Shown here one piece after another: positions 16,197 through 53,600 of a DNA stretch of 64,000 nucleotides. This DNA is from Hymenobacter yonginensis (GTDB lineage Bacteria > Bacteroidota > Bacteroidia > Cytophagales > Hymenobacteraceae), in contig NZ_CP115396.1 in assembly GCF_027625995.1 (NCBI RefSeq), forward strand, positions 1,798,001 through 1,862,000. Reading direction: 5' to 3'. Both the position numbers and the translations under genes were made by a program. Within the stretch, counting starts at the first letter, position 1, and the number at the start of each line of letters is the position of its first letter. The notes below the pieces were generated by a model. The model saw only the letters and a program-made list of their open reading frames with translations. It was not told where the DNA came from and did no database searches.

Positions 16197-16302
16197 ACGA
16201 TGTAGAGACGCAATATTTTGCGTCTCCTCGTTGAACGATACGTGTAGACTGTCTTGAGCAACGTCAGCAACGAAGAGACGCAAAATATTGCGTCTCTACA
16301 TC
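16197..16302. repeat. Paired inverted repeat, family D (GTAGAGACGCAA...)
   Basis: The left arm (GTAGAGACGCAATATTTTGC, then GTCTC) and its inverted partner at 16275-16300 are separated by about 48 bp. Each arm is itself an internal palindrome (GAGACGCAATATTTTGCGTCTC). CAGCAACGA precedes the right arm, as in other copies. Confidence 0.9.
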
Positions 16303-19049: not shown

Positions 19050-19148
19050 TTTTTTAGCCCGCAGAGGACGCATTGTTTGGCGCAGAGGGCGCGGAGGTCG
19101 TTCTTCTGCGCCTTCTGCGCAACCCTCTACGCCCTCTGCGGGCTAAAT
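19050..19148. repeat. Paired inverted repeat, family I (TTAGCCCGCAGAGG...)
   Basis: The outer arms TTTTAGCCCGCAGAGG (19051-19067) and CCTCTGCGGGCTAAA (19133-19147) enclose a GCAGAGG/CTCTGCG-rich core. The left arm starts right after the MMPL stop. The related core motif CCTCTGCGG recurs inside the nested element at 50700. Confidence 0.8.
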
Positions 19149-19172
19149 CCGTATGCCCCATCTTTGCCCCGT

Positions 19173-19751
19173 ATGACGAAACGCCTTTTGCCCGCTCTGT
19201 TTGCCCTGGCCAGCACCGCCGCCCTCGCCCAAACGCCCTCCACCGCCCCCGACGACCCGCTGCCTCGCCTGATTCAGGAGCGCCAGCAGCTGGTGCAGGA
19301 GTATGAAGCCGCCGCCGCCCAGCGCAACGCCTTCCTGGCCGATAAGCCCAGCAAAAAAGACCTTCAGGAAGTGGTGGACGCCCTGAAAGGCATCATCCGC
19401 AAGGACACTGAGATTGTGCGGGCCGTGCAGGCCGGCACCCTGCGCAAAACCGCCGCCGTGGTGGCCGAAAACCAGCAGGCCCGCCAGCAAATCACCGTGG
19501 CCCAAACCGACCAGAGCAGTACCCGGGAGCGGTTCCACGATTTGGAAAGCCAGATTGCCAACCTGCAGGAGCGCGACCGGCAGCGCGAAAAGAAGCTCCA
19601 GGACCTGCAAGCCACCGCCGACGAAGCCACTCAGGCCCGCACCAGCCGCGAGCTGCTGGCCGCCGCCCTGGCCGTGTTATCGGCCGGGTTACTGTTCTAC
19701 GTATTGAAGCTGCGCGGGCAACAAGGCGCGCCGGTGAAGCGGCGGAAGTAA
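19173..19751 (+). CDS. Periplasmic coiled-coil protein with C-terminal membrane anchor
   Basis: A 192-residue protein with a signal peptide (cleavage after ALA, near residue 19). A long charged coiled coil (about 25-160, rich in Gln/Glu/Arg heptads) is followed by one C-terminal transmembrane helix (LLAAALAVLSAGLLFYVLKL) and a short basic tail. The topology suggests an envelope scaffold or a protein that spans the periplasm. No enzymatic motif is visible. The start follows the repeat at 19148 by 24 bp. Confidence 0.7.
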   Translation: MTKRLLPALFALASTAALAQTPSTAPDDPLPRLIQERQQLVQEYEAAAAQRNAFLADKPSKKDLQEVVDALKGIIRKDTEIVRAVQAGTLRKTAAVVAENQQARQQITVAQTDQSSTRERFHDLESQIANLQERDRQREKKLQDLQATADEATQARTSRELLAAALAVLSAGLLFYVLKLRGQQGAPVKRRK

Positions 19752-19757
19752 GGCAGA

Positions 19758-19855
19758 ACGACGTAGAGACGCAATATTTTGCGTCTCTACGTTGCTGATG
19801 TTGTTTTCCCCGATCGTTCAACGACGAGACGCAAAATATTGCGTCTCTACATTGT
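19758..19855. repeat. Paired inverted repeat, family D
   Basis: Arms GTAGAGACGCAATATTTTGC... (19763-19789) and its inverse (19825-19851), separated by about 35 bp. The left arm is followed by GTTGCTGATGTTGTT, the reverse of the CATCAGCAAC that precedes right arms elsewhere. Confidence 0.9.
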
Positions 19856-20277: not shown

Positions 20278-21723
20278 TTGACCTGGACCGAAGAACAGGC
20301 CCGCGCCCTTATCCCCGATGCCGGCACCCTGAAACGGGGCCAGGAGCTGGCCGCCCCCGCCCGGTGGCAGAACCTGGGCCGCACCGACACCGCCGCCTGG
20401 GGCGAGTGCAAAGGCAGCGGCAGCAAACCCTACCAAACCGGCCTCGACCTCACCGCTCCCGCCTTCAAGTGCAGCTGCCCCAGCCGCGTGTTCCCGTGCA
20501 AGCACGGGGCGGGCTTGCTCCTGCTGCTGGCCCGTCAGCCTCAGCTGCTGGGCCCCGCCGAGCCCCCCGCCTGGCTGCAGGAATGGCTGGAAAAACGTCA
20601 GCAAACCCAGGAGAAAAAAGCCCCCAAACCCGCCACTACGGCCGGGGCGGAAGGCAACAATTCCCCCGAAACAGCGGCTGGCTCGCCTGCTGCTGAGGAG
20701 CAGGCAGCGGGGAGTGAGGCTGCCCGCCAGAAGCGCGAAACCCAGCGCCACGCCCGCATGCAGCGCGGGGCCCAGGAGCTGGAAACCTGGCTGCTGGATG
20801 TGGTGCGCACCGGCCTGGCCGCCCTCGACCAGCAGCCGCGCGCCTACTGGGAAAGCCAGGCCGCCCGCCTCGTGGACAACCAACTGCCGGGGCTGGCGGC
20901 GGCCGTGCGCGAGCTGCCCGACCTGCGCCACCAGGGCCCCGACTGGCCCGCCCGCCTGCTGGCCCGCCTCGGCGAGCTGTACCTGCTGGTGCGCACGTTC
21001 CAGCGCCTGCCCGAGCTAGCCGACGAAGTTCGCGCCGACGTGCTGCAGCTGGTGGGCGTGAACCTGAAGAAGGAAGACCTGCTGGCCACCCAGCCCGCCG
21101 TGGCCGACGAGTGGCAGGTACTCAGCCAGACTACCACCGAGGAAGACCGCCTGACCGTGCGCCGCTCCTGGCTGCAGGGCCAGCGCACCGGCCGCTTCGC
21201 GCTGGTGGTGGAATTTTCCTTCGGCGGACAGGCCTTCGCCACGCCGTTGCTGCCCGCGGGCCGGTACGCGGGCGAGCTGACGTTTTATGCCGGTCGGGTG
21301 CCGCTGCGGGCCGTGCCCGGGCCGCTCACTTTCCAGGGTCTGACATCGGCTACGGCCGCTCCCACTGGCGGCCAGGGCCCCACCCGGCTCCTGAACGACT
21401 ACGCCGACGCCCTGGCCCGTCTGCCCTGGCTGCGCGAGTGGCCCGCGTTGCTGCGCGGCGGCATTCCTGCCCGCACCGCCACGGGCGGCTGGCAGCTTCA
21501 GTTTCCGGCGGCTGATGACGGAATGGAAGCCGGAGAAGCCAACACCGGCCCCGCCGCGGCGGCCGATTCTGTGGCCCTGCCCCTGCTCTGCGACGAGCTG
21601 GCGGGCTGGGAGATGCGCGCCCTCAGCGGCGGCCAGCCCCTCACAGTATTCGGGGAGTGGACCGGCCGGGGCCTGCGCCCGCTCGGCAGCTGGCCGGCCG
21701 CCCTTCACCCGCTCACTGCCTGA
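20278..21723 (+). CDS. SWIM zinc-finger protein
   Basis: A 481-residue protein. The SWIM motif appears as C-x-C-x6-C-x-H (CSCPSRVFPCKH) at residues 62-73, which binds zinc and mediates protein or nucleic-acid contacts. The rest is a helical, Ala/Leu/Gln-rich region with a low-complexity Ala/Glu linker (about 110-160) followed by a conserved domain that ends in WTGRGLRPLGSWP. The start is taken as TTG (20278), giving MTWTEEQARALIPDA, which matches where relatives begin; no ATG or GTG is in frame nearby. It overlaps in context with the DUF5691 gene 3 bp downstream and opens the MoxR/VWA cluster. Confidence 0.85.
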   Translation: MTWTEEQARALIPDAGTLKRGQELAAPARWQNLGRTDTAAWGECKGSGSKPYQTGLDLTAPAFKCSCPSRVFPCKHGAGLLLLLARQPQLLGPAEPPAWLQEWLEKRQQTQEKKAPKPATTAGAEGNNSPETAAGSPAAEEQAAGSEAARQKRETQRHARMQRGAQELETWLLDVVRTGLAALDQQPRAYWESQAARLVDNQLPGLAAAVRELPDLRHQGPDWPARLLARLGELYLLVRTFQRLPELADEVRADVLQLVGVNLKKEDLLATQPAVADEWQVLSQTTTEEDRLTVRRSWLQGQRTGRFALVVEFSFGGQAFATPLLPAGRYAGELTFYAGRVPLRAVPGPLTFQGLTSATAAPTGGQGPTRLLNDYADALARLPWLREWPALLRGGIPARTATGGWQLQFPAADDGMEAGEANTGPAAAADSVALPLLCDELAGWEMRALSGGQPLTVFGEWTGRGLRPLGSWPAALHPLTA

Positions 21724-21726
21724 CCC

Positions 21727-23415
21727 ATGCCCGACGCCCTGCCCCCTTCCGCCCCCCACCTGCGTCCCGCCGCCGACTGGCAGCAGCTCCAGCGCGTGGC
21801 CCTACTGGGCACCCGCCAGAGCACCGAAACCCTGCCCGCCGTGCCCGGCTGCGCCGCGCCTGCCGAATCTGCTGACCACCGCGAGCAGCAGGTGCTGCTG
21901 CTGGCCGGGGTGTTGAGTACCGTGCGCAAAGCCGGCTTCCGCCCCCCGCGGGCCGGGGCCGATGCGCCGGAAACCTCCCGGCCCACCCCGGCAACGACAT
22001 TCTCTGAAGAGAGAACTGCGGCGGCCACCGAAGCCGCGCCGGCCCCTGCTGATTCCGGCCCAGCCCACCGGCCAAGCACGGCGGCAGTTGCCGGGTCCGA
22101 AACGGCTGCGCCGCTGGGGCCGCAGGGTGCGCAGCTGCTGCAGCTGATGCTGGAAGGCACCGAGGCCGGCTCGCTCTACGGCTTTCTGGAAGATATGCAC
22201 CGGCACCAGCGGCGGGTGCCGCCACGGCTGCTGGTGGGCCTGCTGGAAGCTACGCGCACCCGCCGGGAGCTGCACGGCCCCGCCTCCCAGGTACTGGGCC
22301 GGCGGGGCGAGTGGCTGGCCGCCCAGAACCCGGCCTGGCAGCCCGTGCTGCTGGCCGGCGCTACTGCTCCCGACCCAGCCACCTGGGAAACCGGCACCCT
22401 GGCCGAGCGCCGCACCTACCTCTACCTGCTGCGCGACACCGACCCCACCGAGGCCCGGACGCTGCTGGCCGCTACCCTGCCCCAGGAGCCCGCCCGCACC
22501 CAAGCCGAGCTGATCCAGACCCTCGCCCAAAACCCCGACCCCGCCGACGCACCCCTGCTGGAGCAGTACCTGACGGCCAAAAGCAAGGAGGTGCGGCAGG
22601 CCGTCCGGCCGCTGCTGGCCCGCCTGCCCGATAGTCCGCTGCTGGCGCGGCTGTGGCAGCGGGCCGAGCCCCTGGTGCGCCTCAAAACCGGCCTGCTCAG
22701 CAAAAAGCTGCTTGTGGAGCTGCCCCCGGCCGACTGGGACAAAACCTGGCTCCCCGACGGTATCGAGCAGAAGGACAGCCGGTTTCAGGGCGAGCGGGCC
22801 GCGCTATTGGGGCAGGTGCTAGCCCTGCTGCCGCCGGCCCGCTGGGCTGCGCACTGGCAGCTGGCGCCCCGCAAGCTGCTGGAGCTGGCCGCCGCCACCG
22901 AGTGGGCCGGGCTGCTGCTCACGGCCTGGGCCGAAGCCGCCGTGCTCCACCAGGACGCCGAGTGGGCCGGGGCCCTGCTGGCTTGGTTCTACGAGAAGCC
23001 CCGCCCCCTGCCCGCCACCCTGCCCACCGGCGGCCTGGTGTGGCAGCTCACGCCGGAGCAGGCCGCCGACCTGCTGCTGCCCCTCATCAACGCCACGCCT
23101 CATTTCAGCGCCGAGGTGGGCTGGCTGTCGCTGCTGCAGCTGGCCCCCGGCCCCTGGCCCGAGCGCCTCACCCGCCGGGTGGTGGAGGTGCTGCGCGATA
23201 CTCTCAGCAAGCCCGTGGAGCTGTACCGCATCCAGTATGCGGCCGGGCAGCTGCTCGAGCACATGGCCCGCGCGGTGCCCGCCGCCCAGTACCGCCTCTG
23301 CGCCGAGCCCCTGCAGCCCCTGCTCCAGGACGTGCCCTACCTGCACAACAGCCTCGCCCGCCTACTTAACACCCTGCACTTCCGCCAGCAGCTCGCCGAG
23401 GTACTACTCGAATGA
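21727..23415 (+). CDS. DUF5691 protein
   Basis: A 562-residue, mostly helical protein that begins with WQQLQRVALLGTRQS, the typical opening of the DUF5691 family. A Pro/Ala-rich disordered insert occupies residues about 75-130. The rest is made of Leu-rich helical repeats resembling HEAT/ARM units (for example RTLLAATLPQEPARTQAELI). No catalytic motif is evident; a scaffold role is likely (inference). It is separated from the SWIM gene by 3 bp, so the two are surely co-translated. DUF5691 genes regularly neighbour SWIM, MoxR-type ATPase, DUF5682 and VWA genes, as here. Confidence 0.82.
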   Translation: MPDALPPSAPHLRPAADWQQLQRVALLGTRQSTETLPAVPGCAAPAESADHREQQVLLLAGVLSTVRKAGFRPPRAGADAPETSRPTPATTFSEERTAAATEAAPAPADSGPAHRPSTAAVAGSETAAPLGPQGAQLLQLMLEGTEAGSLYGFLEDMHRHQRRVPPRLLVGLLEATRTRRELHGPASQVLGRRGEWLAAQNPAWQPVLLAGATAPDPATWETGTLAERRTYLYLLRDTDPTEARTLLAATLPQEPARTQAELIQTLAQNPDPADAPLLEQYLTAKSKEVRQAVRPLLARLPDSPLLARLWQRAEPLVRLKTGLLSKKLLVELPPADWDKTWLPDGIEQKDSRFQGERAALLGQVLALLPPARWAAHWQLAPRKLLELAAATEWAGLLLTAWAEAAVLHQDAEWAGALLAWFYEKPRPLPATLPTGGLVWQLTPEQAADLLLPLINATPHFSAEVGWLSLLQLAPGPWPERLTRRVVEVLRDTLSKPVELYRIQYAAGQLLEHMARAVPAAQYRLCAEPLQPLLQDVPYLHNSLARLLNTLHFRQQLAEVLLE

Positions 23416-23680
23416 ACGATGTAGAGACGCAATACTTTGCGTCTCACGCCAGAACGGCCGGAACTACCTCACAGAACGATGTAGAGACGCAATACTTTGC
23501 GTCTCCCGCCAGAACAACCGGAACTACCGCACTGAACGATGTAGAGACGCGACACTTCGCGTCTCCCGTCAGAGCAACCGGCACCACCTCACAGAATAAG
23601 GACCTCCGCCAGAACAACCGGAACCACCCAGGTCAAACAACATCAGCAACGACGAGACCCGAAGTGTCGCGTCTCTATAC
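23412..23680. repeat. Tandem 60-bp array of family D arms plus inverted partner
   Basis: Three copies of a 60-bp unit start near 23412, 23472 and 23532. Each contains GTAGAGACGC-N9-GCGTCTC followed by a degenerate CGCCAGAACAACCGGAAC spacer, then a decayed fourth copy without the hairpin. An inverted arm (GAGACCCGAAGTGTCGC, then GTCTC) closes the array at 23654-23679. The first unit begins at the end of the DUF5691 gene; the third unit and the closing arm share the GACACTTCGC variant. Confidence 0.85.
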
Positions 23681-23691
23681 CCATCAACCCT

Positions 23692-24792
23692 ATGCCTACC
23701 ACGCCCGAAACCGCCGTCCTGCGCCCGCACGCCGAGGATGTGTACGCCGAAGAGCTGGCCGCTCTGCGCGCCGCCGACCACGACCGGCCCAAACCCCCGA
23801 ACTGGCACCTCTCGCCCTGGGCCACCGTCACCTACCTGCTGGGCGGCAAGCTGGATAACGGGTTTGAAATCGAGCCCAAGTACATCGGGCAGCGGCGGCT
23901 GATGGAAATTGCGGTGGCCACCCTGGCTACCGACCGCGCCCTGCTGCTGCTGGGCGTGCCGGGCACGGCCAAAAGCTGGGTATCGGAGCACCTGACGGCG
24001 GCCATCAGCGGCCGGTCGGACTTGCTGGTGCAGGGCACGGCGGGCACCTCCGAGGACGCCATCCGCTACTCCTGGAACTACGCCCGCCTCATTGCCGAAG
24101 GGCCTTCTTTGGGCGCGCTGGTGCCCTCGCCCCTGTTCAAAGGCATGCAGGAAGGCCGCCTGGTGCGCCTCGAGGAGCTCACCCGCATCCCCTCCGACGT
24201 GCAGGATACGCTCATCACCATGCTCTCCGAAAAAGTGCTGCCCATCCCGGAGCTTTCCACCGAGGTACAGGCCGTGAGCGGCTTCAACGTCATTGCCACC
24301 GCCAACGACCGGGACAAGGGCGTGAACGAGCTAAGCAGCGCGCTGCGCCGCCGCTTCAACACCGTCGTACTGCCCCTGCCGACCTCCGCGGAGGAGGAAG
24401 TGCGCATCGTGCAGACGCGGGTGGAAAAGCAGGGCAAGGCGCTGCAGCTACCCGCCGAAGCCCCGGCCCTGGAGCAAATCAGCCGCCTCGTGACCATCTT
24501 CCGAGAGTTGCGCTCGGGCGTGACGGAGAACGGCAAAACCAAGCTTAAAAGCCCCAGCGGCACGCTCAGCACCGGCGAGGCCATTTCGGTGATGAACAGC
24601 GGCCTGGCCCTGGCCGCCTACTTCGGCGACGGCAGCCTCCGCGCCCACGACCTGGCCGCCAGCCTCACCGGCGCCGTGCTCAAAGACCCCGTGCAGGACC
24701 GCACCGTCTGGCTCGAATACCTCGAAACCGTGGTAAAAGAGCGGGACGGCTGGAAAGACCTCTACCGCGCCTGCCGGGAGGTGGTGGAGTAG
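23692..24792 (+). CDS. MoxR-like AAA+ ATPase
   Basis: A 366-residue protein with Walker A GVPGTAKS (about residues 88-95), an atypical Walker B with LEEL in place of the usual LDEx, sensor 1 IATANDRD and the arginine-finger region ALRRRFN. The insert between helix 2 and the ATPase core (GTAGTSEDAIRYSWNYARL) is characteristic of MoxR-group chaperone ATPases, which usually act with VWA proteins encoded nearby, here at 28931. It has an N-terminal extension of about 70 residues. The start lies 11 bp after the repeat array. Confidence 0.9.
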   Translation: MPTTPETAVLRPHAEDVYAEELAALRAADHDRPKPPNWHLSPWATVTYLLGGKLDNGFEIEPKYIGQRRLMEIAVATLATDRALLLLGVPGTAKSWVSEHLTAAISGRSDLLVQGTAGTSEDAIRYSWNYARLIAEGPSLGALVPSPLFKGMQEGRLVRLEELTRIPSDVQDTLITMLSEKVLPIPELSTEVQAVSGFNVIATANDRDKGVNELSSALRRRFNTVVLPLPTSAEEEVRIVQTRVEKQGKALQLPAEAPALEQISRLVTIFRELRSGVTENGKTKLKSPSGTLSTGEAISVMNSGLALAAYFGDGSLRAHDLAASLTGAVLKDPVQDRTVWLEYLETVVKERDGWKDLYRACREVVE

Positions 24793-24806
24793 AATTCGAT
24801 TCGAAA

Positions 24807-24840
24807 CTGAACGTCATGCTGAGCGGAACGAAGCATCTTG
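24807..24840. repeat. Solo half of a family B repeat
   Basis: AACGTCATGCTGAGCGGAAC followed by GAAGCATCTTG matches one arm of the family B elements (GTCATGCTGAGC...GAAGCATCTC). No inverted partner is nearby. Confidence 0.7.
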
Positions 24841-24864
24841 CCCGCACTGACCAACCTGTTTTCA

Positions 24865-25455
24865 ATGCACTTCCTACGCACGCACAAGAACCTGATTCCA
24901 GTAGTATTGCTGGCCGCCCTTAGTGTTTATACAATTCTCACGGTTCTGTTTGTGCCAGTGTACCAGGATGGAGAAGCGTACCAGCGGGCCTTTACTCCGG
25001 CTCATTACGGCGCTTTTGCTGCTGTGCTTCTGAATCTGCTGGCTTACTTCTTTTTCCGCCCGTTCTTCAAACCGGTACTCCTGCTGACCTTGGGCCTTAC
25101 CCTGTTCAGCATCATCAATTTCTTACCGGATAATGTCCGGTTCAATTTCGGTTTTGGAGACGTAGGAGTAGGTTTTTCGATTCTGGGGCTAGGGCTGGTG
25201 CTGCTGTATTATCTCTTGAATAAGCCAGCCGCTCACGCTTTTATCAACCAGCGCATTACCGCCACTCCCACACCCGAGCAAGCAGCCCGCCGCCGCCGAC
25301 AACGCATTGACCAGTTCAAGCAGAATTTCGCCCGCAAATCCGACGAAAGCCTGCAACTGATGCTTCAGGAGCAAAAAGTGCTGCCGGATGCCTTATCAGC
25401 CGCACGGGAGTTGCTGCAGGAGCGGCAGGCTTCAACCGAAATCAGTAAAAAATAG
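24865..25455 (+). CDS. Membrane protein with cytoplasmic coiled tail, unknown function
   Basis: A 196-residue protein with four hydrophobic helices (about 10-32, 50-72, 76-93, 98-118) and then a charged, helical cytoplasmic tail rich in Arg/Gln/Glu. No family is recognised. Its GC content is lower than that of the flanking MoxR and DUF5682 genes, suggesting separate acquisition (inference). It is followed 10 bp later by another unrecognised small gene, with which it probably forms a unit. Confidence 0.68.
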   Translation: MHFLRTHKNLIPVVLLAALSVYTILTVLFVPVYQDGEAYQRAFTPAHYGAFAAVLLNLLAYFFFRPFFKPVLLLTLGLTLFSIINFLPDNVRFNFGFGDVGVGFSILGLGLVLLYYLLNKPAAHAFINQRITATPTPEQAARRRRQRIDQFKQNFARKSDESLQLMLQEQKVLPDALSAARELLQERQASTEISKK

Positions 25456-25465
25456 GCAAGGCATT

Positions 25466-25864
25466 ATGTCAAACAAACAGCCTGAATCTTACTGGACAGC
25501 GGTTGGCAATATTATTCGGGAACGGCCCTACGGACCGGGCGGAGTTGAAATCCGCTACGGCACGAAGCATTTTGCACCGGGCGCCAAAGTATACATCATC
25601 GACTGGTACCCGGGGACGTGTGACGCCGTTACCGTTGTTGGCCACCACCGCAAGTCGCACCAATTAATGAAGCTGGTAGTGCGGGTAGAACATCTGGAGA
25701 ACTTGCGCGCAAAGGTGTGCTACTCACCGGCCGTAAGCAGCATCATGAAGGAGCATTTTGAAGCGGGCGACGCCCCCTACCGCCTTACCCGGGAATTTGC
25801 CGAACAGCTGTGTGCCGTTTTACCCCACTGGAAGGCAGAACAACAACGCGCCAAAAACATCTAA
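25466..25864 (+). CDS. Hypothetical protein, 132 residues
   Basis: A soluble, mixed alpha/beta protein. A conserved-looking core GAKVYIIDWYPGTCDAVTVV, then HHRKSHQLMKLVVRVEHLENLR, resembles hypothetical proteins of Bacteroidota, but no domain name can be attached. The GC content is lower than the neighbours. Its stop overlaps the DUF5682 start (TAATG), so translation may be coupled to it. Confidence 0.66.
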   Translation: MSNKQPESYWTAVGNIIRERPYGPGGVEIRYGTKHFAPGAKVYIIDWYPGTCDAVTVVGHHRKSHQLMKLVVRVEHLENLRAKVCYSPAVSSIMKEHFEAGDAPYRLTREFAEQLCAVLPHWKAEQQRAKNI

Positions 25865-28209
25865 TGCCCACCGACCTCCGCCTTTTCGGTATCCGCCACC
25901 ACGGGCCCGGCAGCGCCGCCAGCCTCGTGCACGCCCTCGACGCCTACCAGCCCGATGTGGTGCTGCTGGAGTGCCCCGCCGATGCGGAGGCCGCGCTGGC
26001 CGCCGCCCTGCACCCGGAGATGGTTCCGCCGGTGGCCCTGCTTGTGTACAACCCCAAGCAGCACCAGCAGGCCTCGTTTCTGCCCTTCGCCGAGTTTTCG
26101 CCCGAGTGGCAGGCCCTCCACTGGTGCCACCGCCACGGCGCCCACCTGCGCTGCTTCGACCTGCCCATGGCCCTGCGCTTCGGGATGCCGGATGAAGTGC
26201 CTGACGTTACGTCTCCCCCCTTGGCCCCCTCGGAACCAGTTCTGGAAGCTGACTTCAACTCAACCACAGAAGCGCCAGAACAGGATGTAGAGCCAGGATT
26301 AGAAGCTCGTTCCCCCTCTCTACCGGAGAGGGGGTTAGGGGGTGAGGCACCGGATCAGGACTCAGCGGCTGAGGCCACCCGGGACCCCATCTCCTACCTG
26401 GCCGAACTCGACGGCTACGCCGACGGGGAGCGGTGGTGGGAGCTGCGCCTGGAACACGCCCCCGGCCACGCCGACACGTTTGCCGTGGTGCTGGACCTGA
26501 TGACGGCCCTGCGCGAAGAGCTGAACCTGCCCGAAACCGAGGAAACCCTGCTGCGCGAGGCCTTCATGCGCGAAACACTGCGCGCCACCCTGCGCCAGGG
26601 CTACCAGCGCGTGGCGGTGGTGTGCGGGGCCTGGCACGCCCCGGTGCTGCGGCCCGAGCTGCTCAAGAAAGAAGACAAAGCCCGCCTCAAGGGCCTGAAA
26701 AAAGTAGCCACCGCCGCCACCTGGATTCCGTGGACGTTTGAGCGCCTGTCTACCGCCTCGGGCTACGGGGCGGGAGTGGGCTCGCCGGCCTGGTACGAGC
26801 TGCTGTTTACCACGCCCCGCGCCGAGGTGGTCACGCACTGGATGGTGCGCGCCGCCCGCCTGCTCCGCTCCCGCGACCTGGACGCCTCCGCCGCCCACGC
26901 CATCGAGGGCGTGCGCCTGGCCCACACCCTGGCCGCCGTGCGTGGCCGCGAGCTGCCGGGCATCGAGGAGCTGCAGGAAGCCGCCGTGGCCATCCTGGGC
27001 GGAGGCTACCCCGAAACCCTGGAGCTGGTGCAGCGCGAGCTGGTGGTGGGCGAGCGGCTGGGCGCGGTGCCGCCCGAGCAGCCCGCCACGCCGTTGCAGC
27101 AGGACGTGCAGCTGCAGCAAAAAGCCACCCGCCTCAAGCCTGAAGCCACCGCCCGCACCCTCGACCTGGATTTGCGCAAGGAGCTGGACCTAAGCCGCAG
27201 CCACCTGCTGCACCGCCTGCGCCTGCTCGACATCCGCTGGGGCCAGCCGCGCCGGGCTCACGGCAAGGCCGGCACCTTCCACGAGCTATGGGAGCTGCAG
27301 TGGCAGCCCGAGTACGCCCTGCAGGTGCTCGACGCGGGCCGCTGGGGCAACACCGTGCTGGCCGCCGCCGCCGCCCGGGCCGCCAGCCGCGCCGCCGAGG
27401 CCCCCGACTTGGAAGCCGTGAGCCAGCTGCTGGAAGAAGCCCTGCAGGCCGACCTCGGCCCGGCCATCGGGGCGCTGGTGGCCCGGCTCGAAACCCTCTC
27501 GGCCGGCACCCGCGACGTGACGCACCTGCTGGCGGCCCTGCCCCCGCTGGTGAACGTGCTGCGCTACGGCAACGTGCGCCGCACCGAAACCGCCCAGGTA
27601 GCCACCGTGGTGCACCACCTGGTGCCGCGCCTGTGCATCGGCCTGCCGCCGGCCTGCACCGGCCTCGACTATGATGCGGCCCGCCAGCTGCTGCCCCGCC
27701 TCGAAGGCAGCCACCAGGCCATCCGGCTGCTGCAGGACGAAGCCCAGGAAACCGATTGGTACGCGGCCCTGGCCGTGGTGCTGCGCAACCCGGCCTCGTC
27801 GGGGCTGCTGGCCGGGGCGGCGGGGCGGCTGTTGTTTGATGCCCACCGCCTCAGCCCGGAGGAAGCCGCCACGGCTCTGGGCCTGGCCCTCTCGCCGGCC
27901 CAGCCTACCAGCTACGCCACGGCTTGGCTGGAAGGCTTCCTCAGCGGCAGCGCCCTGCTGCTGCTCCACCACCGCCCCCTCTTCGACCTGCTCAATGACT
28001 GGCTGGGCACGCTGCCCGAAGACACCTTCCGCGAAATCGTGCCCCTGCTGCGCCGCGCCTTCACCGATTTCAGCCTGCCCGAACGCCGCCAGCTCCTCGA
28101 CCTCGCCCGGCAAGACGCCCAGCCGGCCCTGGCCGCAGCGGAGGAAGATTTCGACCTGGAACGGGGCCTGCGGGTACTACCGGGCCTGCGGGAGCTGCTG
28201 GGCTATTGA
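25864..28209 (+). CDS. DUF5682 protein
   Basis: A 781-residue protein with the DUF5682 opening (FGIRHHGPGSA at residues 7-17, then DVVLLECPADAE) and a second motif VVCGAWHAPVL near residue 252. This His/Glu layout (HHGPGS, LLExP, GAWH) recalls the EreA/ChaN/TraB/Tiki hydrolase superfamily; the relationship is an inference. The C-terminal two-thirds is helical and repeat-like. Residues about 118-178 form an acidic, Pro-rich insert that includes a stretch encoded by a palindromic repeat (26306-26346). Start ATG overlaps the preceding stop. Part of the SWIM/DUF5691/MoxR/VWA cluster. Confidence 0.85.
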   Translation: MPTDLRLFGIRHHGPGSAASLVHALDAYQPDVVLLECPADAEAALAAALHPEMVPPVALLVYNPKQHQQASFLPFAEFSPEWQALHWCHRHGAHLRCFDLPMALRFGMPDEVPDVTSPPLAPSEPVLEADFNSTTEAPEQDVEPGLEARSPSLPERGLGGEAPDQDSAAEATRDPISYLAELDGYADGERWWELRLEHAPGHADTFAVVLDLMTALREELNLPETEETLLREAFMRETLRATLRQGYQRVAVVCGAWHAPVLRPELLKKEDKARLKGLKKVATAATWIPWTFERLSTASGYGAGVGSPAWYELLFTTPRAEVVTHWMVRAARLLRSRDLDASAAHAIEGVRLAHTLAAVRGRELPGIEELQEAAVAILGGGYPETLELVQRELVVGERLGAVPPEQPATPLQQDVQLQQKATRLKPEATARTLDLDLRKELDLSRSHLLHRLRLLDIRWGQPRRAHGKAGTFHELWELQWQPEYALQVLDAGRWGNTVLAAAAARAASRAAEAPDLEAVSQLLEEALQADLGPAIGALVARLETLSAGTRDVTHLLAALPPLVNVLRYGNVRRTETAQVATVVHHLVPRLCIGLPPACTGLDYDAARQLLPRLEGSHQAIRLLQDEAQETDWYAALAVVLRNPASSGLLAGAAGRLLFDAHRLSPEEAATALGLALSPAQPTSYATAWLEGFLSGSALLLLHHRPLFDLLNDWLGTLPEDTFREIVPLLRRAFTDFSLPERRQLLDLARQDAQPALAAAEEDFDLERGLRVLPGLRELLGY
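26306..26346. repeat. Palindromic repeat embedded in the DUF5682 coding region
   Basis: CCCCCTCTCTACCGGAGAGG followed by GGGTTAGGGGGTGAGGC is the same motif as the intergenic copy at 48700-48737 (CCCCTCTACTTTTTCGGAGA, then GGGGTTGGGGTGAGGC). Here it is read in frame as SPSLPERGLGGEA. Confidence 0.7.
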
Positions 28210-28218
28210 CGTACCATA

Positions 28219-28328
28219 GCACGATGTAGAGACGCAATATTTTGCGTCTCATCGTTGAATGACCGTCTTCGCGCAGATCAAACAGCATCAGCAACGACGA
28301 GACGCAAGATATTGCGTCTCTACACCGT
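28219..28328. repeat. Paired inverted repeat, family D
   Basis: Left arm at 28225-28250 and inverse at 28298-28323, with CAGCAACGAC before the right arm. It sits in the 150-bp gap between the DUF5682 gene and the next small gene. Confidence 0.9.
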
Positions 28329-28359
28329 TCCAATTACCAGCCGTCGTACCTTGCCACCT

Positions 28360-28719
28360 ATGCCTACTACCTACCCTTTCCAGGTGGCTGATTTAGCCGA
28401 TAAGGCCGAGCCCGGCCGCCAGGAGCGCATCCTTGTGAACCTCACCAACCTGGAGGACTACTACAACGTGTTCGAGAAATACGGCTTCAGCGGCAGCGGA
28501 GCCAGCTGGGCCGAGCACATCGAAACCATCCTGGAGGAGCACGCCCCGGCCCTGCTCGACCACGTGGAGCTGGCCGGCCAGGGCGACATCTTTCTGGCCT
28601 TCACCGACGGCCCCGCCGCCACCGAGCAGTTCCTGGCCCTCATTCAGCCCATCTTCGGCGACCTGGGCAGCCTCAACAAATACCTCGCCCAGGCCGACCC
28701 GGGGGATTTTTTCGAGTAA
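28360..28719 (+). CDS. Small protein, possibly Imm51-like
   Basis: A 119-residue acidic protein. The segment YYNVFEKYGFSGSGASWAEH (residues 26-45) resembles the conserved region of the Imm51 immunity family (fE--GfeGnGysW), but the match is from memory and only partial. No toxin gene is adjacent. It lies between DUF5682 and VWA genes and is bracketed by palindromic repeats on both sides. The ATG at 28360 avoids translating the upstream repeat. Confidence 0.6.
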   Translation: MPTTYPFQVADLADKAEPGRQERILVNLTNLEDYYNVFEKYGFSGSGASWAEHIETILEEHAPALLDHVELAGQGDIFLAFTDGPAATEQFLALIQPIFGDLGSLNKYLAQADPGDFFE

Positions 28720-28728
28720 TTAATTTAC

Positions 28729-28910
28729 GTTGCGAAGAACTAGAACTAGCGCTAAAAAAGCTAGTTCCCCTCCTTGAAAAGGAGGGGCTAGGGGTGGTTG
28801 ACAATCGTTGAACATCATCCAGCTATAGTCATCGTTCTTGCATCTATCAACCACCCCTAGCCCCTCCTTTCCAAGGAGGGGAACTAGCTCTAGACCTTGT
28901 TCTCCGCAAC
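28729..28910. repeat. Paired inverted repeat, family A (CTAGTTCCCCTCC...)
   Basis: The arms run from GTTGCGAAGAAC via CTAGTTCCCCTCCTTGAAAA and GGGGTGGTTGACA to the inverse CAACCACCCCTAGCCCCTCC... and GTTCTCCGCAAC. Each arm contains its own small CCCCTCC/GGAGGGG hairpin. The spacer is about 35 bp. Another copy, with a second element inserted in its spacer, is at 55056-55366. Confidence 0.88.
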
Positions 28911-28930
28911 TTGGGTTAACCATCTGCCCC

Positions 28931-30043
28931 ATGACACCCGCCACCGACAACGCCACCCGCTGGAAGCTCGTGCTCGGCTCCGAGGCCGACGCCCAGAACC
29001 AGATTACCTTCGATGCCGATTACAAAGGCATGGACGACGTGCTGACCTCGCTATATGACCAGTCGGAGCGCAAGGCCGGGCTGGGCGGCTCCGCGCCGCG
29101 CGTGAGCCGCTGGCTGGGCGACATCCGCACCTACTTCCCCACCGACGTGGTGGCCGTGATGCAGCGCGACGCCATGGACCGCCTGGGGCTGCACCAACTG
29201 CTGCTGGAGCCCGAGATTCTGCGCACAGTGCAGGCCGATGTGCAGCTGGTGGGCCTGCTCATGTCGTTGAGCCGGGTGATGCCCCAGAAGGTGAAGCACA
29301 CCGCCCGCGAGGTGGTGGGCCGGGTGGTGAAGGAGCTGGAGCAGAAACTCTCGAACCCGCTGCGGCAGGCCGTGCAGGGCGCCCTGAGCCGGGCCGTGCG
29401 CAACCCCCGCCCCCGCTACCGCGAAATCGACTGGGCCGCCACCATTCGCGTCAACCTGAAGCACTACCAGCCGGCCCAGCGCACCATCGTGCCCGAGCGG
29501 CTGGTGGGCTTCGGGCGGCGCGGGCAGGCGCTCAAGGAAATTGTGCTGTGCGTGGACCAGAGCGGGTCCATGGCCTCCTCGGTGGTGTACGCGGGCGTAT
29601 TCGGAGCGGTGCTGGCCTCCATCAAGGCCGTGAAAACGCACATGGTGGTGTTTGACACTAGCGTGGTAAACCTTTCCGAGGATCTGCAGGACCCGGTGGA
29701 CCTGCTGTTTGGGGTGCAGCTAGGCGGCGGTACCGATATCAACCTGGCCCTGGGCTACTGCCAGCAGCTCATCACCCGCCCCACCGACACCATTCTGGTG
29801 CTCATCAGCGACCTGTACGAGGGCGGCAACGAGCAGCAGATGCTCAAAAAAGCTGCCGCCCTGCGCGCCGCCGGCGTTACAGTCGTAGCCCTGCTGGCCC
29901 TCTCCGACGACGGCGCCCCCAGCTTCGATAGGCGCGTGGCCGAGCAGCTGGCCGCCCTCGATATTCCCTCCTTCGCCTGCACCCCGCACCAGTTCCCGGG
30001 CCTGATGGCGGCCGCCATTCAGGGCGGCAAGCTGCAGGTGTAG
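28931..30043 (+). CDS. VWA-domain protein, MoxR partner
   Basis: A 370-residue protein. The N-terminal half is helical; the C-terminal half is a von Willebrand factor A domain with a complete MIDAS site: DQSGSMAS (about residues 212-219), GGGTDINLAL (Thr) and ISDLYEGG (Asp). It should bind a divalent cation and a partner protein. VWA proteins of this type work with MoxR-like ATPases, here encoded at 23692. The ATG at 28931 is chosen; an upstream extension would translate the family A repeat. Confidence 0.9.
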   Translation: MTPATDNATRWKLVLGSEADAQNQITFDADYKGMDDVLTSLYDQSERKAGLGGSAPRVSRWLGDIRTYFPTDVVAVMQRDAMDRLGLHQLLLEPEILRTVQADVQLVGLLMSLSRVMPQKVKHTAREVVGRVVKELEQKLSNPLRQAVQGALSRAVRNPRPRYREIDWAATIRVNLKHYQPAQRTIVPERLVGFGRRGQALKEIVLCVDQSGSMASSVVYAGVFGAVLASIKAVKTHMVVFDTSVVNLSEDLQDPVDLLFGVQLGGGTDINLALGYCQQLITRPTDTILVLISDLYEGGNEQQMLKKAAALRAAGVTVVALLALSDDGAPSFDRRVAEQLAALDIPSFACTPHQFPGLMAAAIQGGKLQV

Positions 30044-53494: not shown

Positions 53495-53600
53495 CCTGTA
53501 GAGACGCAATATCTTGCGTCTCGTCGTTGCGGATGTTGTTTGAACCGCTCGGGCAAAGCCGTTCAACGACGAGACGCAAGATATTGCGTCTCTACCCTGC
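53495..53600. repeat. Paired inverted repeat, family D
   Basis: Arms GTAGAGACGCAATATCTTGC, GTCTC (53498-53522) and the inverse (53571-53595), with GTTGCGGATGTTGTT after the left arm. It separates divergent genes. Confidence 0.9.

Follow-up and report, generated by a model that had tools for sequence, protein, structure and literature searches.

The stretch of Hymenobacter yonginensis DNA analysed here (64,000 nucleotides of contig NZ_CP115396.1, positions 1,798,001 to 1,862,000, referred to as the window) carries a cluster of five large genes that code for a SWIM zinc-finger protein, a DUF5691 protein, a MoxR-type AAA+ ATPase, a DUF5682 protein and a VWA protein. The cluster is more than a chance neighbourhood; it is a real, conserved module and, judged by sequence, a distant five-part version of yehLMPQ, the uncharacterised YehL-class MoxR-VWA gene set of Escherichia coli. 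On balance it is probable that the five proteins make up one YehL-class, multi-protein MoxR/VWA remodelling machine, in which DUF5682 would be the dedicated working domain, the VWA protein would be docked and SWIM-DUF5691 would serve as a scaffold. An earlier note on this DNA had listed five same-strand genes of these families at 20278-30043; all are present, on the plus strand and with Pfam support that is weak for SWIM (Table 1), while three small genes that lie between them were missing from that account.

The five genes form a conserved module

Gene order was compared in 89 loci, the window included, that were picked through DUF5682 or DUF5691; many of them are truncated by the end of a contig, and a few genomes are represented twice. 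SWIM-DUF5691-MoxR-DUF5682-VWA on one strand is the order in 44 of the 89, and none of the loci with all five families has any other. Two more have the full order with a DUF4132 gene inserted between MoxR and DUF5682, an insertion seen with the full set in a Verrucomicrobiota locus, and partial versions keep the first four genes (six loci) or the last four (three). DUF4132-MoxR-DUF5682-VWA-SWIM was found in six loci, E. coli included, and DUF4132-MoxR-DUF5682-VWA, MoxR-DUF5682-VWA-SWIM-DUF4132 and DUF4132-DUF5682-VWA in one each. The others are MoxR-DUF5682-VWA only (seven loci), MoxR-DUF5682-VWA-SWIM (five), SWIM-MoxR-DUF5682-VWA (four), SWIM-DUF5691 only (three), DUF5682-VWA-SWIM (two), DUF5682 only (two), DUF5691-MoxR (one) and DUF5691 only (one). 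Holders of the full set belong to six phyla as labelled in their records (Bacteroidota, Chloroflexota, Planctomycetota, Actinomycetota, Pseudomonadota, represented by Lampropedia, and Deinococcota), and on a Rhizobium plasmid the five genes are annotated in the same order as in the window.

The two DUF families also travel together. Among 59 related genomes, DUF5691 was detected in 18 and DUF5682 in 19, with both in 17 (Fisher p 1.1e-11); one genome has DUF5691 without DUF5682 and two have the reverse. Two wider sets were each drawn around a centre genome picked for holding DUF5682: in 201 genomes from the phylum of G067, a metagenome-assembled genome (MAG) labelled Actinomycetota, the over-cut-off counts are 16 for DUF5691, 18 for DUF5682 and 16 for both (Fisher p 8e-22), and in 185 genomes from the class of Lampropedia they are 2, 4 and 2 (p 4e-4). 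In seven more genomes of the first set DUF5691 is matched at a score under the cut-off; six of these lack DUF5682, and in the seventh, G217, the match lies about 1.8 kb from the DUF5682 gene. All 11 of the distant genomes searched that hold DUF5682 also have DUF5691, two of these being near-identical Verrucomicrobiaceae MAG loci. A search for DUF5682 in 246 genomes from the phylum of G069, a MAG labelled Planctomycetota, gave over-cut-off matches in 26, and within Hymenobacter the family is patchy (17 of 37 same-genus genomes). The earlier note would have regarded the cluster as coincidental if its families were scattered independently in other genomes; co-occurrence and a fixed order were found instead, and the cluster is not coincidental.

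Conserved residues were counted in rows selected by score and length only, with no motif requirement (78 MoxR, 74 VWA and 82 DUF5682 rows, four short pieces being left out of each set). In MoxR, the Walker A Lys, both Walker B Glu residues, the sensor 1 Asn and two Arg are present in 78/78 rows. The first acidic residue of Walker B is Glu, not Asp, in every row, E. coli YehL included, and the resulting R-x-E-E is a possible signature of the YehL subfamily. The metal ion-dependent adhesion site (MIDAS) of the VWA protein is intact in the window, as had been noticed earlier, and its columns are conserved, with D, S, S and the last D in 74/74 rows and T in 68/74. The SWIM motif CxC..CxH was found in 69 of 72 SWIM frames, and two of the three exceptions are pieces of one split frame.

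Natural fusions link the genes in pairs. In 6 of 24 Hymenobacter loci and on one Hymenobacter plasmid, a single open frame encodes both SWIM and DUF5691, and DUF5682 and VWA form one frame in four loci (L238, L244, L246 and L258), which are a single clade with support of 100/100 in the DUF5682 tree; the 1255-aa Streptomyces fusion (L258) has Pfam matches to DUF5682 at 35-996 and VWA_CoxE at 1025-1246. One Bacteroidia MAG has SWIM-DUF5691 (L157) and MoxR-DUF5682-VWA (L053) on two contigs, where mis-binning is possible. Taken together, the two fusions and this split suggest that SWIM-DUF5691 and DUF5682-VWA are two subassemblies around a MoxR ring. In three of the four DUF5682-VWA fusion loci a very large protein is encoded directly upstream of MoxR (L258 2729-7651, L244 12668-17743, L246 1645-7476), and the one in Streptomyces has no Pfam match.

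The scaffold position appears less constant. Four loci of the set around G069 (L239-L242) have no DUF5691 match between SWIM and MoxR, and in 4/4 the gap is filled by a frame of about 590-640 aa; three of these frames were scanned with Pfam, and HEAT_2 was over the cut-off in two (E 5e-7 and 7e-8) but not in the third. In the yeh-type branch a DUF4132 protein adjoins MoxR in several loci, that of L250 having a WGR domain. A broader reading, held tentatively, is that the cluster belongs to a further class of MoxR-VWA ternary systems that includes yehLMPQ, in which DUF5682, as a metal-dependent hydrolase coupled directly to VWA, would be switched by the MoxR ring and would be joined by an exchangeable recognition module of SWIM and a helical partner; that partner may be DUF5691, a HEAT protein or WGR/DUF4132.

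Relation to yehLMPQ and other MoxR-VWA systems

By Pfam, yehL, yehM, yehP and yehQ of E. coli K-12 encode AAA_5, DUF5682, VWA_CoxE and SWIM proteins. In BLASTP comparisons, YehL shares 41% identity with the window MoxR over 358 aa (235 bits) and YehP 34% identity with the window VWA over 370 aa, while YehM belongs to the same family as the window DUF5682 and aligns with it in two main pieces. No BLASTP match was obtained between YehQ and the window SWIM protein, which have the SWIM domain alone in common. The E. coli cluster further differs in having no DUF5691, in placing the SWIM gene last rather than first and in carrying a DUF4132 gene upstream; its surroundings include yehI (DUF4132) and yehF (WGR family PF05406 by annotation). 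In a DUF5682 tree of 59 rows, 10 of the 14 yeh-type rows, E. coli included, form one clade, separate from that of the window, and of the remaining four, three fall within the fusion clade and the last, from Verrucomicrobiota, has a DUF4132 gene. On this tree label A requires 6 changes and label B 4, in part because 'other' was the label given to loci truncated by the end of a contig. Of 5426 E. coli genomes, 5162 have 80% or more of the yehLMPQ stretch together in a single place, and the places found are chromosomal in 5320 of 5322 cases.

Judged against YehL, RavA and NorQ, the three subfamilies compared, the window MoxR is by sequence a member of the YehL subfamily, the other two giving 22.7 bits over 25 aa around Walker A (RavA) and a weak match at E 1.1e-6 in PDB (NorQ). 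It is paired in the genome with a YehP-type VWA and a YehM-type DUF5682, which in our own reading is a further mark of the subfamily. The subfamily reportedly stems from a 2006 survey of MoxR proteins. A passage in PMC3893208 counts seven MoxR subfamilies, YehL among them, and lists YehL as one of the two MoxR proteins of K-12. The cluster had been put forward as a candidate poorly described system; the idea that it lacks relatives is not supported, given that it has a distant counterpart in yehLMPQ and that its subfamily is named in print. No mention of DUF5682 or DUF5691 and no client of YehL were found in the literature searched, subscription journals being outside that search.

Other MoxR-VWA systems share part of this layout. 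RavA-ViaA also joins a MoxR protein to a VWA partner, and ViaA matches the window VWA at 27.3 bits in the VWA core. NorQ-NorD and CoxD-CoxE are MoxR-VWA pairs with a VWA of the CoxE-type family, as in the window. In NorQ-NorD the MIDAS serves client binding, according to the relevant part of PMC9976466, where Walker B has Asp then Glu in contrast to the R-x-E-E of the window. No nor or cox client genes were noticed in the cluster flanks among the best 25 of 161 Pfam families. The MoxR-vWA ternary systems (eLife 2020) resemble the window in combining MoxR and vWA with a dedicated third component; as described in sections of PMC7159879, that component is VMAP, iSTAND, FtsH or a beta-propeller, whereas here it is DUF5682. 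None of these domains was found in the window proteins (Pfam, E 0.01), save for a bpMoxR match at 26.1 bits, just under the 27-bit cut-off, and the main text of PMC7159879 mentions neither SWIM nor YehL.

A proposed machine and its possible clients

The families, their order and co-occurrence, the fusions, the conserved motifs and the relation to yehLMPQ are the observations from which a ring, a complex, an enzyme and client recognition are predicted. The MoxR protein would form an ATP-driven ring, on which the VWA protein would dock, its MIDAS metal holding an acidic residue of a partner by analogy with NorQ/NorD. In that system, as reported in part of PMC9976466, the VWA domain was modelled plugging the MoxR ring, the MIDAS was needed for an active client and not for ring binding, and the capability for ATP hydrolysis was required. 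DUF5682, which can share one polypeptide with VWA, would be the working domain that VWA brings to the ring, and its activity, or access to it, would be gated by ATP hydrolysis. SWIM and DUF5691, sometimes also one polypeptide, would provide a helical scaffold that binds zinc and serves either to recognise the client or to regulate the ring. The earlier suggestion of a single MoxR-VWA machine, driven by ATP and including an accessory protein that may be an enzyme, is supported by the two fusions, the conserved AAA+ and MIDAS residues, co-occurrence and gene order.

DUF5682 is probably a metal-dependent hydrolase, a role suggested by its invariant His, Glu, Asp, Arg and His residues. Thirteen positions are the same in 82/82 rows (R11, H12, E36, S79, P80, E81, D99, W192, E197, R231, M235, G255 and H258), with H13 in 76/82 and E232 in 81/82. 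We take the order of these residues to be reminiscent of EreA and Tiki/TraB proteins. EreA proteins scored a mean of 0.6 bits against the DUF5682 profile, compared with -1.65 and -1.83 for shuffles and controls, and the best scores were 5.6 for EreA and 4.9 for shuffles; in several EreA proteins the R-x-x-x-M element aligns in register, with scores between about 0.1 and 5 bits. The ordered motif His...Glu...Asp...R-x-x-x-M...His occurs in 67/78 DUF5682 rows, 1/22 EreA, 0/16 TraB and 0/1251 other open reading frames. This test was set up after the motifs had been seen and its DUF5682 rows were picked by the start motif, and with EreA at 1/22 it does not by itself support a link to EreA.

Several observations weigh against the proposed machine. 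DUF5682 has no sequence relative in PDB and, beyond its own family, nothing in Pfam that scores usefully, and comparison with EreA and TraB by hhalign and hidden Markov models stayed near background, although the positive control, TraB against EreA, failed as well. The SWIM match of the window protein to PF04434 is weak (E 0.006) and under the cut-off. The core can do without DUF5691, which is missing from the E. coli cluster and was not matched in any other yeh-type locus. G016 keeps SWIM-DUF5691 with no match to DUF5682, and G038 has its two DUF genes on separate contigs, with none of the other core genes in the stretch examined. Finally, because the 89 loci were picked for DUF5682 or DUF5691, the counts of the other core genes in them are conditional.

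The cluster could instead encode an enzyme-maturation chaperone like CoxD/CoxE and NorQ/NorD, MoxR and VWA remodelling a metalloenzyme encoded elsewhere so that metal can be inserted, with SWIM, DUF5691 and DUF5682 as adaptors or metal carriers; this is considered rather unlikely. The window VWA is of the CoxE family, NorQ/NorD matures a metalloenzyme (a passage in PMC9976466), and the DUF4132 and WGR families found beside yehLMPQ were tied to MolR and molybdate in part of PMC8533742. Molybdate-metabolism genes were nevertheless unchanged in the comparison described there, and the R, H, E, D, R and H invariant in all 82 DUF5682 rows would fit an active site better than the surface of an adaptor. 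Nor does an enzyme gene recur beside the cluster in the loci compared, where it is DUF4132, a regulator-type protein, and the large protein of three fusion loci that recur. A first comparison of neighbours gave DUF4132 in five loci and a LacI-type regulator in three. A second gave DUF4132 in eight and signalling proteins with response-regulator parts in six (three in Hymenobacter, three in others), the rest being the large protein in three fusion loci, groups confined to Hymenobacter, one Verrucomicrobiaceae pair and single genes. None of these neighbours is convincing as a recurrent client gene. The lack of a recurrent enzyme gene fits a machine complete in itself as well as one whose target is encoded at another site; of the earlier proposal on maturation, the role itself is possible and the expected enzyme neighbour was not found in these loci.

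A machine for DNA damage or stress, which SWIM and WGR domains would bring to damaged nucleic acid or to a stress-damaged complex, is very improbable. WGR domains bind DNA, and the DUF4132 neighbours of MoxR in the yeh-type branch, with WGR in L250, would suit such a role. In Deinococcus radiodurans, WGR and DUF4132 proteins rise on DdrO depletion, as stated in a section of PMC8533742. WGR and DUF4132 are, however, missing from the window cluster, and those Deinococcus proteins were not linked here to a neighbouring cluster of this kind.

Possible insertion slots in Hymenobacter and the question of defence

Table 1. Genes of the window cluster, with positions in the window.
Feature	Position	Strand	Remarks
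SWIM zinc-finger protein, 481 aa	20278..21723	+	TTG start; CxCx(6)CxH intact in translation
DUF5691 protein, 562 aa	21727..23415	+	Pfam PF18944 E 9.5e-117; predicted helical scaffold
MoxR-type AAA+ ATPase, YehL subfamily by sequence, 366 aa	23692..24792	+	Pfam AAA_5 PF07728 E 1.4e-34
Accessory membrane-type protein, 196 aa	24865..25455	+	no Pfam match
Accessory protein, 158 aa	25388..25864	+	Pfam-scanned as part of the slot-gene set
DUF5682 protein, 781 aa, predicted hydrolase-like working domain	25864..28209	+	Pfam PF18934 E 1.1e-242
Imm51-family protein, 119 aa	28360..28719	+	Pfam PF15595 E 3.8e-8
VWA (CoxE-like) protein, 370 aa	28931..30043	+	Pfam VWA_CoxE PF05762 E 1.2e-49; MIDAS intact

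Hymenobacter rigui is the nearest relative that was found (97% identity in DUF5682). The SWIM motif of the window protein is CSCPSRVFPCKH, which fits CxCx(n)CxH, and its TTG start is in line with relatives such as L049 and L061, where ATG stands at about the same place. The DUF5691 protein has a weak HEAT_2 match (E 0.0077, under the cut-off). The stop of the 158-aa protein gene shares one base with the DUF5682 start. Homologues of the 158-aa protein occur in seven other Hymenobacter loci; those of the 196-aa protein were found in the same slot in seven other Hymenobacter loci and, at 182 bits, on the Hymenobacter plasmid of locus L259, and in this sample they are confined to Hymenobacter. Thirteen other Hymenobacter loci also have, upstream, a homologue of the coiled-coil-like protein that lies upstream of the SWIM gene in the window (19077-19751), which indicates that the chromosomal site is at least partly conserved. 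A family of REP-like palindromes with arms GTAGAGACGCAATA and its complement lies upstream of the cluster and between the DUF5682 and Imm51 genes, and one arm recurs in a 60-bp unit of which three copies lie between DUF5691 and MoxR; the window positions concerned are 16202-16299, 19763-19850, 23414-23596, 28226-28323 and 53498-53595.

The window gaps 24793-25863 and 28210-28930, and the same gaps in other Hymenobacter loci, look like insertion slots. The MoxR-DUF5682 gap exceeds 300 bp in 24/24 Hymenobacter loci compared with 8/55 elsewhere, and the DUF5682-VWA gap in 17/20 compared with 4/52; these counts leave out missing genes and gaps outside -400 to 9000 bp, and the plasmid locus L259 is counted among the non-Hymenobacter loci. 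The cargo includes SUKH, Imm51, restriction-like nuclease, membrane and redox genes: of 85 slot genes, a count that leaves out opposite-strand genes under 300 aa, 12 match SUKH-1 and 11 Imm51. Immunity to polymorphic toxins was rejected as a general reading of Imm51, which is matched in 32 of 37 same-genus genomes, cluster or none, and mostly in one copy. So wide a spread in the genus is odd for an immunity protein, and the Imm51-family gene of the window is probably a passenger. One genome of the genus (G026) has 19 SUKH (SMI1/KNR4) matches, several close together, and no DUF5682 match.

These features bear on a conflict or defence system like the MoxR-vWA ternary systems of eLife 2020, in which the ring would restrain DUF5682 as an enzymatic effector and free it upon infection, a reading regarded as improbable. 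Those systems, as set out in parts of PMC7159879, likewise combine MoxR and VWA with a third protein, the cluster is patchy in Hymenobacter, SUKH, Imm51 and nuclease genes occupy its slots, and the PADLOC candidate family PDC-M40A is matched by 11 of the 85 slot proteins, with a few matches to others (best 25 of 32 families). A few plasmid copies exist (21 of 72,556 plasmid records). Against this, none of the five core proteins matches PADLOC at E 0.01, and Imm51 is matched across the genus with or without the cluster. Outside Hymenobacter, the Pfam families of the 101 flank proteins are mainly ordinary enzymes and regulators (best 25 of 161 families), with ATP-dependent DNA ligase domains in two of the 101; 42 PADLOC families match the flanks at E 1e-10, a figure without a control set, and most of the best 25 do so in one protein each. 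One of 50,697 phage records, marked as unverified, holds a relative. The near-universal, chromosomal yehLMPQ of E. coli has the distribution of a core gene set, which argues against sporadic phage defence, at least in that branch. The earlier suggestion of a role in defence is therefore weakly supported at best, although a conflict role may exist in Hymenobacter given the patchiness and the slot genes.

The reading of the cluster as one YehL-class MoxR/VWA machine places YehL in a widespread module whose partners are fixed, in which two fusions occur and whose scaffold is exchangeable; what was an orphan operon thereby becomes a defined complex open to purification. If DUF5682 is indeed an enzyme, the module would be an example of a MoxR ring devoted to a single enzymatic partner. 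Most E. coli carry yehLMPQ, which makes the job of the machine testable in a standard laboratory bacterium.

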